This document shows positions 18,884 to 20,394 of a stretch of 46,145 bases of DNA, piece after piece. Origin of the DNA: Streptomyces sp. MS191 (GTDB lineage: Bacteria; Actinomycetota; Actinomycetes; Streptomycetales; Streptomycetaceae). Location: the NCBI RefSeq assembly GCF_008042125.1, contig NZ_RDBI01000081.1:1763-47907 (forward strand), given 5' to 3'. The first letter of the stretch is position 1. Every line of letters starts with the position of its first letter. Below the pieces are notes generated by a model that saw only the letters and a program-made list of their open reading frames with translations, did no database searches and was not told the DNA's origin. A program made the translations under genes and the position numbers.

Positions 18884-19852
18884 TCAGGGATTCTCCGCGC
18901 TCCCGGCCGCCGGCGCCGACAGCAGGAAGTCGGCGAAGTGCTCGGTCAGCGGCTCGCCCGTCAGCGGTTCCAGGAACAGGAACTGCCCCTGGGGGTTCAC
19001 CTCCAGCCACACCGGCTCGTCGTCCGGGGTCAGCTTCAGGTCCACGATCCCCATCGGCAGCCCCAGGCGCCGCAGCACCTCGGACACCCGGGCGTGGAGC
19101 TCGGCGGGTACGGGCCACGGACGGATCGGCACCTCCAGGTCGGGGCGCCAGTCCAGGTCCTCCGTCTCGATGAGGGCCGCGTACATCCGCTCGCCGAAGG
19201 AGTTGAGGCGGATGTGCCGGCAGCCCTCGATGTACTCCTGGTACACGGCGGGGCAGACCTCGAACGAGGCGGCGGGGATCGATCCGGGATCGTCCAGCAT
19301 CCGGGTCCACAGGGACGGCCCCCGGGCGCCGACCACGGGCTTGACGATCGTCCGGCCCGTCTCGCGCACGAAGTCGACCACCTCCGCGCGTGACTGCGAG
19401 ATCAGGGTCCGCGGCACCCGGAACCCGCAGTCCCGGGCCACGGCCAGCTGGAAGACCTTGTCGGCGGCCCGGTCGGTGGCGTCCGCCGGTGAGATCCAGC
19501 GCCCGCGGAAGGACGCGGCGAGGATGCCGCCGAGCGCGCCCCGGCAGTCGTTGTCGACCAGACTGCGCTCGTGCGCGCTGCCCGCCCCCGCCGACACGGC
19601 CTGATCGGCCCGGGGGCGCCGCCACCACAGGACGTCCGCCCCCTCCACGGCCACCTCGACACCCTCGGAGGTCAGGACGGTGGCCGGCCGGCCCGAACCG
19701 GCCGGCCCGTCCCGGTGCGAGCGCCAGGACAGCGTCCGCCGTCCTCCGATGGTGTCGCTCTCCACGATGTGCAGCTCCCGCCCGCGCCCGCGCACGGCGT
19801 GCTGCACGGCCAGGGCGTGGAGGTCCTCGCGGACGGAGACGGTCAGGATCAC
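18884..19852 (-). CDS. ATP-grasp peptide ligase (MvdD/TgmB-like, graspetide type)
   Basis: 322 residues. The N-terminal ~110 residues match the pre-ATP-grasp region of RiPP ligases (DVLWWRRPR at about 74-82). The ATP-grasp fold has Lys171 in TIVKPVVGARG, QEYIEG (205-210), HIRLNSFGERMYAALIE (213-229), LDWRPD (233-238), VDLKL (270-274) and LEVNPQGQFLFLE (283-295, Mg-binding Glu and Asn). Such enzymes phosphorylate Asp/Glu side chains of a precursor peptide and close ester or amide rings with Ser, Thr or Lys. A DxR motif that contacts the substrate in known ligases appears here as HIR, suggesting a different subgroup. The GTG start overlaps the upstream peptide stop by 4 bp (GTGA), tying it to that peptide. 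Confidence 0.88.
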   Translation of the reverse strand: MILTVSVREDLHALAVQHAVRGRGRELHIVESDTIGGRRTLSWRSHRDGPAGSGRPATVLTSEGVEVAVEGADVLWWRRPRADQAVSAGAGSAHERSLVDNDCRGALGGILAASFRGRWISPADATDRAADKVFQLAVARDCGFRVPRTLISQSRAEVVDFVRETGRTIVKPVVGARGPSLWTRMLDDPGSIPAASFEVCPAVYQEYIEGCRHIRLNSFGERMYAALIETEDLDWRPDLEVPIRPWPVPAELHARVSEVLRRLGLPMGIVDLKLTPDDEPVWLEVNPQGQFLFLEPLTGEPLTEHFADFLLSAPAAGSAENP

Positions 19853-20106
19853 GCGACGCCGCAGTCGTCGCTGTGGCTCGCCTCGCCGTACGAGCAGCCG
19901 GTCTCGGCCGCCACGCCCGCGAGATTGTCGGCGACGATCTCCAGACCGGTGGTCTGGCGGACCGCCTGCTCCCAGGCGCGCAGCTGCTCGGGTGTCTTCA
20001 GGACCACGTAGCGGTCGGGCTGGGAATGGAAGACCACCGGGGGTGCCATCTTCACGACGTCCTCGTCGTACCCGTCCAGCGAGTCACCGAGCTTGAAGTC
20101 AGGCAT
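19849..20106 (-). CDS. Candidate RiPP precursor for the adjacent ATP-grasp ligase
   Basis: 85 residues starting at ATG 20106, with GAGG 8 bases upstream (an in-frame GTG at 20115 is less likely). Acidic overall. Residues 1-60 would be the leader (DGYDEDVVKM; YVVLKTPEQLRAWEQAV looks like a helix a ligase could bind). The last ~20 residues, AAETGCSYGEASHSDDCGVA, are rich in Glu, Asp, Ser, Thr and Cys and fit an omega-ester or omega-amide core; two Cys are spaced eleven apart. The coding overlap with the ligase means stoichiometric co-translation. No peptidase, acetyltransferase, methyltransferase or exporter lies beside it. The ~290 bp upstream hold its promoter region; no other gene was seen there. 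The precursor role is inference. Confidence 0.7.
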   Translation of the reverse strand: MPDFKLGDSLDGYDEDVVKMAPPVVFHSQPDRYVVLKTPEQLRAWEQAVRQTTGLEIVADNLAGVAAETGCSYGEASHSDDCGVA

Positions 20107-20394
20107 GACGCCCACCTCGGATCGGTAGGGGATTCTTCGCTCGTCTCCACGATTCCACTCCGGGCGATCCGGTGCATGTCGGAGCGGCGCCGGCAGGCGG
20201 CGCGTCCCCGACCGACAGGCGGGCGCGGACGAGCGGCTGACAGGTCGTCGGACCGGCCGCCGCGCGTGGGGGAAGGGGCGCGCTGGGGGCGCGCTTCCAC
20301 AGGCTCCGGCGCGCGAATGAGCGACCCTCGCGCTCCTGCGCGCCCCCGGGAGGGGTATCCCCCGCGCGGCCGCGTCCGGCGCCGCGAACGGCCG

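Follow-up and report, generated by a model that had tools for sequence, protein, structure and literature searches.

A conserved pair of genes on the minus strand of the window, the 46,145-nucleotide stretch of Streptomyces DNA analysed here, encodes an ATP-grasp ligase and, directly upstream of it, an 85-residue peptide that very probably is crosslinked by this ligase in the manner of a graspetide. We read the pair as a minimal graspetide-type RiPP system in which two rings would be formed at Glu68 and Asp80 of the peptide, with Cys82 and Cys71 as the most likely donors; this reading as a whole is tentative, and we place it a little short of an even balance.

Results

The gene pair

The ligase gene occupies positions 18884..19852 (minus strand; 322 aa, GTG start, stop codon included) and was recognised by NCBIfam, PDB and fold matches. 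The precursor gene lies at 19849..20106 (minus strand; 85 aa, ATG start at 20106, TGA stop), and its relatives are found upstream of all 19 close ligases, the window ligase included. A Shine-Dalgarno-like site, GAGGTG (20113..20118, minus strand), can be read in the sequence 7-12 nt upstream of the ATG. The TGA stop of the precursor overlaps the GTG start of the ligase by 4 nt (GTGA). The two reading frames, their overlap and the C-terminus of the precursor, AAETGCSYGEASHSDDCGVA, are as the first-pass annotation gave them, and its proposal of a minimal two-gene RiPP-type pair is supported.

The whole peptide is under purifying selection (dN 0.02-0.08, dS 0.32-0.84 over the six possible pairings of the four closest copies), and so is the core region in the same six pairs (dN 0-0.04, dS 0.07-0.60). 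Because of this selection and because the pair recurs in other genomes, its arrangement is more than chance; a chance open reading frame is ruled out by conservation, gene overlap and dN/dS. A search of the window's genome for a second precursor returned a single weak match (E 0.26). In the plasmid record of a close relative, both genes carry the NCBI annotation 'hypothetical protein' (accession pair WP_331727759.1/WP_331727762.1), and the family is therefore easy to overlook.

The ligase and its clade

Judged by sequence and modelled fold, the window ligase is within the graspetide-synthetase superfamily, yet its scores stay below the cut-off of every NCBI family listed. The best NCBIfam match is TIGR04187 (E 6.3e-45; 153.7 bits, below the 350-bit cut-off), followed by MvdC (TIGR04185; 103.7 of 425 bits) and MvdD (TIGR04184; 97.2 of 475 bits), both also below their cut-offs, and each of these three models matches all 22 clade members scanned. 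The nearest solved sequences in a PDB search were MdnC (5ig9; 5.8e-24), PruB (9bou), AMdnB, MdnB, CdnC and PsnB. The AlphaFold2 model of the ligase (mean pLDDT 85.7, 22-row alignment) likewise has MdnC 5ig9 as its best fold match (VIA Z 28.8, rmsd 3.3, 296 aligned), with AMdnB (Z 27.0), PruB (26.5), CdnC (25.8), MdnB (25.6) and PsnB (25.3) behind it and LysX and RimK next in the list (Z ~22); among the matches listed, graspetide synthetases fill the first 32 of 50 from Foldseek and the first 9 of 50 from VIA. Sequence and fold thus agree with the initial assignment of the enzyme to the MvdC/MvdD kind.

The ATP-grasp landmarks pointed out at first reading are present, namely Lys171 (in IVKP), LDWR at residues 233-236, EVNPQG at 284-289 and HIR at 213-215. 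EVNPQG (18986..19003, minus strand), which we take to be the ATP-grasp metal-binding site, is invariant in the 22-row ligase alignment. The HIR motif (H213-I214-R215; 19208..19216, minus strand) stands where other graspetide-type ligases have D/E-x-R.

The clade as collected comprises 29 ligases, of which 19 are close and come from Streptomyces and ten are distant (L044-L047 and six from another family, called f19). At E<=1e-30 the ligase search matched 17 places, spread over 15 of 295 Streptomyces genomes, and further searches gave matches in 12 of 391 genomes of the order (1e-40), 10 of 394 of the class (1e-45) and 6 of 250 of f19 (1e-60); these genome sets overlap, part of the matches belong to the outgroup and, since the searches used score limits and a capped first pass, a missing match does not prove absence from a genome. 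Four matches of the Streptomyces search (L013, L014, L015 and L017) carry D/E-x-R and were set aside as outgroup, two Streptomyces contigs, one of them also present among the genomes searched, and one Streptomyces linear plasmid were added as clade sources, and two loci that appeared twice (L018 is L038 and L011 is L037) were each counted once. Canonical ligases are commoner: 20 of the places from a TIGR04187 search were examined for them, and 18 of 41 relatives carry one over the TIGR04187 cut-off.

In a tree of 62 ligases, made up of the 29 clade members, 20 from the TIGR04187 search (18 over the cut-off; L115 and L116 below it) and 13 others, the clade falls on one branch with support 100/100 and a length of 0.97. 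The alignment upholds the early remark that HIR replaces D/E-x-R. All 29 clade members have H-x-R, and His occurs at this site in none of the 33 outgroup ligases, 32 of which have D/E-x-R (five via a one-residue shift); the remaining one, L115, has A-V-R with a His before it. The clade is further marked by G117, Y204 and K273 (29/29, against 0/33 of the others) and by Q288 (29/29 against 2/33). The window ligase, with its HIR, lacks the D/E-x-R that is usual in graspetide synthetases. That motif has a role in core binding; it is better regarded as a common than as a proven defining feature, and a literature search for the phrase 'DxR motif' together with ATP-grasp found no paper.

Two groups of outgroup ligases came up in these searches. 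Five with D-L-R (L078, L080, L088, L089 and L090), from Streptomyces and one other actinomycete family, have an astacin-type metallopeptidase reading frame directly upstream; HEIGHxxGLxHE and a C-terminal extension are found in all five, with a stop that overlaps the ligase start. The sole one scanned, that of L014 (L014:662-1501, the same place as L090), matches Pfam PF01400 at 1.8e-37. It would be unusual for a protease to serve as the substrate or partner in a graspetide system. Four E-L-R ligases of f19 (L079, L081, L082 and L086) have short upstream reading frames with a GG-like motif, for example VNGGRKFEWSS in L079, L082 and L086, and these are perhaps precursors of another graspetide type.

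The precursor leader and core

The precursor alignment bears out the expectation that the leader is kept and the core is variable. Residues G7, P22, P23, V24, Q29, P39, W45, E46, T52, T53 and G54 of the leader are invariant in 18 close precursors. The stretch PPVVF (residues 22-26; 20029..20043, minus strand), whose P22, P23 and V24 are invariant in this 18-row alignment, likely corresponds to Phhx(1,2)h, a motif that the available part of PMC8939145 describes for the leaders of graspetide precursors. Residues 39-53 (19948..19992, minus strand) are predicted by AlphaFold2 to form a helix (block pLDDT 72-80) that contains L-x-x-W-E, with W45 and E46 invariant. This is the one longer helix in a peptide model with a mean pLDDT of 57, and residues 64-85 have no confident structure (pLDDT <50), so that the earlier description of the leader as folded-looking was overstated. 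Cys is absent outside the last 30 residues in all 30 precursors, and the leader is Cys-free.

The precursors of f19 also have P-x-V/I and L-x-x-W-E, and the close and f19 sets match each other in hhalign at E 8e-5. Kinship to GRASP_targ leaders was considered and dropped: hhalign against the canonical precursors showed no similarity (E 0.66 and 0.34), TIGR04186 (GRASP_targ) was not listed for the window precursor or any of 18 close precursors at E up to 10 with HMMER filters on, and the window's genome has no TIGR04186 match at 0.001. Neither Pfam nor NCBIfam holds a credible family for the precursor.

The predicted core spans residues 67-85 (AETGCSYGEASHSDDCGVA; 19852..19908, minus strand) and contains E68 (19903-19905), C71 (19894-19896), D80 (19867-19869) and C82 (19861-19863), all on the minus strand. 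Glu68 and Asp80 are invariant in the 18 aligned close precursors, and C71 and S79 are nearly so, in cores that vary in length and sequence. All 19 close precursors fit the motif E-x(1,2)-[C/S]-x(5,8)-D-x-C, as do seven of 11 distant ones (six of f19, and L047) when the last position is given as [C/S]; the four of the 30 that miss it are L044, L045, L046 and L094b. The motif was read post hoc from related sequences and is for that reason a hypothesis rather than a test. When the tails of nine sequences were shuffled, 1.2-16% of trials still matched it, and in L042 and L043 the alignment and the motif choose different Asp residues.

At position 71, 18 of the 19 close precursors have Cys and one (L041) has Ser. 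Position 79, which immediately precedes the Asp, holds Ser in 17 of the 19, Thr in L031 and Cys in L096, and position 77 is Ser in seven and Cys in four of the 11 precursors that have it. The residue two after the Asp (D+2) is Cys in all 19 close and in six f19 precursors and Ser in the sister L047. Such exchange of Ser, Thr and Cys at fixed positions beside invariant acids is as expected of nucleophile positions. The close precursors have 2, 3, 4, 5 or 6 Cys, not always an even number. In f19, L093 has two Cys and the other five of the six precursors have just one, so the exchange of Cys for Ser at D+2 between f19 and L047 is not about an intramolecular disulfide. The core had been expected to show a pattern of acids and hydroxyls; the conserved acids are there, but their most constant partner in the close precursors (18-19 sequences) is a thiol and not a hydroxyl. 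Canonical precursors of the Streptomyces group matched at 40 places; in all 12 that were examined, the last 45 residues are free of Cys.

Recurrence and neighbourhood of the pair

The first-pass annotation had held that absence of the small gene beside most ligase homologues would speak against its proposal. Such an absence was not found: each of the 29 clade ligases has a related small gene upstream. Of the 19 close pairs, 13 show a 4-nt overlap of the two genes and five a 1-nt overlap, and in one the genes are 1 nt apart. The precursors of L044-L047, which lie 36-139 nt upstream of the ligase, were picked by eye among upstream reading frames because they share a P-x-V/I-F/Y...E pattern. The precursor of L093 matches the precursor profile weakly (E 0.024), and its leader and core nevertheless read alike. 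At L094 (G1087:C1) two precursors with the same type of leader stand in tandem upstream of the ligase, and the second (L094b) ends in PTWCHGILDDLI, which does not fit the core motif.

A search of 391 Streptomyces genomes with the close precursors as queries gave 14 matches, of which 11 have an intact adjoining ligase, two are decayed and one is weak. In one decayed copy (L074) the precursor is split over two frames and no ligase was found; in the other (L075) the precursor is truncated and the ligase is reduced to a 22-aa stretch. None of the 14 stands as an orphan precursor, as the two without an intact ligase are decayed remnants. L087 (E 0.0075) was rejected as a precursor and taken as chance, since it runs antisense to a long reading frame that, by eye, resembles an arginine-biosynthesis gene.

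In the window, a polysaccharide lyase of family 8 is encoded upstream of the pair, and downstream come genes for two unknown proteins, of 164 and 120 aa, and for an EamA transporter. As was noted at the outset, the pair is not flanked by a second modifying enzyme, a peptidase or a dedicated exporter; the EamA-family transporter lies ~1.1 kb downstream on the other strand, and none of the 21 other loci compared contains a counterpart of it. The idea that the pair belongs to a larger fixed cluster is unsupported: across 22 loci, none of the neighbour families keeps a fixed position. Some families recur at varying distance (family 2, the widest, in 8/22 loci and family 4 in 6), L033 and L038 have two neighbours in common, and the neighbourhoods of L034 and L035 are nearly identical; these gene lists are approximate because our home-made gene caller missed the ligases of L036, L041, L043 and L046. 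Nine of ten clade matches checked on long contigs (three others were left out) are less than 1 Mb away from the end of their contig, and one pair sits on a 498-kb linear plasmid of Streptomyces. These positions, together with the plasmid copy, would suit an exchanged accessory module.

Discussion

Graspetides as a class are defined by ester or amide rings that an ATP-grasp ligase closes between side chains. We infer docking, ring formation, thioester chemistry, connectivity and cleavage, as well as any biological role, in the following way. The Cys-free leader, with its PPVVF stretch and L-x-x-W-E helix, would dock the precursor on the ligase, and the ligase with ATP would phosphorylate the side chains of Glu68 and Asp80 in the core. 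Adjacent side chains would then attack the acyl phosphates and close two rings with the loss of 36 Da; the predicted tryptic fragment of the window precursor, QTTGLEIVADNLAGVAAETGCSYGEASHSDDCGVA, has a computed MH+ of 3411.495 when unmodified. From the conserved motif, the attackers would most likely be the thiols of Cys82 and Cys71, which would give side-chain thioesters; provided that crosslinking is of the graspetide type, thiol donors seem to us an even call. The connectivity could be nested, E68-C82 and C71-D80, which would use each residue of the motif once and leave a loop of 5 to 8 residues. The leader would be removed afterwards by an enzyme encoded elsewhere.

It is possible, though we lean against so broad a claim, that these loci represent a natural thioester (side-chain thiolactone) graspetide family, composed of HxR synthetases, precursors with hydroxyl donors swapped for thiols, and reactive two-ring peptides. 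If this is true, the peptides could acylate targets or rearrange to amides. Thioesters are labile, and it speaks against them here that no dedicated exporter or peptidase is conserved beside the pair in 22 loci. Because the cores also hold Ser and Thr, ordinary esters could form as well.

The same ligase could thus make an ordinary graspetide, with E68 and D80 as acceptors, Thr69, Ser77 and Ser79 as ester-forming donors, and the Cys residues free or joined in disulfides after export. We regard this as a serious, if doubtful, possibility. Described graspetide donors are Ser, Thr or Lys, according to the available part of PMC13097080. Position 79 is a hydroxyl residue in nearly all close precursors (Ser in 17/19, Thr in 1), and the core of the distant relative L044 is Cys-free with three Thr. 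However, the residue before the Asp is not kept in the sister lineage, where it is Trp, and [C/S] at D+2 is kept; moreover, D+2 is Cys in 19/19 close precursors, and odd Cys numbers and the lone Cys of five of six f19 precursors also speak against this reading. A Cys-rich subtype could also bind metal. That the core, rich in Cys and Asp (up to 6 Cys, as in CSCGCSDDCCVDC), serves to hold zinc or copper, with or without links made by the ligase, is improbable as an account of the family: six of the 19 close precursors have a CSCGC[S/T]DDCC core (subtype B), and zinc-binding Cys motifs occur in another RiPP type, the cysimiditides (PMC13001092, in the part available), but the window core has two Cys only, f19 cores mostly have one, and the general neighbour comparison over 22 loci gave no neighbour gene at a fixed place beside the pair.

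It is very unlikely that the enzyme is not a macrocyclase but couples a peptide, as substrate or carrier, with a small molecule or an amino acid, in the way of RimK/LysX or of a pheganomycin-like system. The ATP-grasp fold is common to both activities, and LysX and RimK come next in the fold list; nevertheless, its best matches in both sequence and fold are peptide macrocyclases, and the C-terminal residues of the peptide vary (VA, LA, MA, PE, PV, PIQ, AL and others). The thiol-linked two-ring peptide that we prefer would come from a family of just two genes whose precursors have invariant acids and a thiol that is nearly so, and such a family would allow a direct test in E. coli of whether enzymes close thioester macrocycles natively. 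Its ligase, in which the substrate-site motif is HxR, would also be a resource for engineering, and electrophilic peptides from the family could serve ligation chemistry.

Among known systems, GRASP_SAV_5884/GRASP_targ (TIGR04187 with TIGR04186), including PruB of S. coelicolor (9bou), resembles the window pair in having an actinomycete precursor directly upstream of an ATP-grasp ligase, in ligase superfamily and fold, and in its C-terminal acidic core. The window ligase differs in falling below the 350-bit cut-off and in HxR instead of D/E-x-R, and the precursor in its dissimilar leader (hhalign E 0.66) and in the Cys of its core, which none of the 12 canonical tails examined has. The microviridin synthetases MdnC/MvdC and MdnB/MvdD include the best sequence and fold match (MdnC 5ig9), and MdnC shares the DWR stretch, but MdnC has ELR where the window ligase has HIR, and no second ligase is adjacent in the window. 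The plesiocin synthetase PsnB (7drm, 7drn, 7dro, 7drp) is alike in fold (Z 25.3), but its sequence match is just 1.2e-9. Plesiocin cores have repeated Thr/Glu. The microviridin leader PFFARFL (PMC8939145, available part) also differs from that of the window.

The fuscimiditide-type graspimiditides of ThfA/ThfB resemble the proposed product in that one ligase makes two rings in a stem-loop; there, however, the native donors are Thr and a methyltransferase, ThfM, takes part (PMC12291112, available part), and no methyltransferase is adjacent in the window. ThfB accepts replaced donors, and replacement yields amides and thioesters (same part of PMC12291112). Graspetide synthetases more generally use Ser, Thr or Lys and can make non-native thioesters (PMC13097080), and the available parts of PMC13097080 and PMC12291112 report no native graspetide thioester. 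Many predicted graspetide precursors carry conserved Cys, for which radical SAM thioethers were suggested (PMC8939145, available part); no radical SAM enzyme is among the eight neighbour genes scanned here. Of published graspetide groups 1-43, three (27, 28 and 35) are said to consist of a ligase and a precursor alone (PMC13097080, available part), and the present lineage may already be listed in such surveys. Because the ligase lies in sequence and fold inside the graspetide-synthetase superfamily, the initial suggestion of an undescribed peptide class was too strong; on sequence grounds the lineage has a ligase motif, a leader and a core of its own, and is best described as a distinct graspetide-type lineage.
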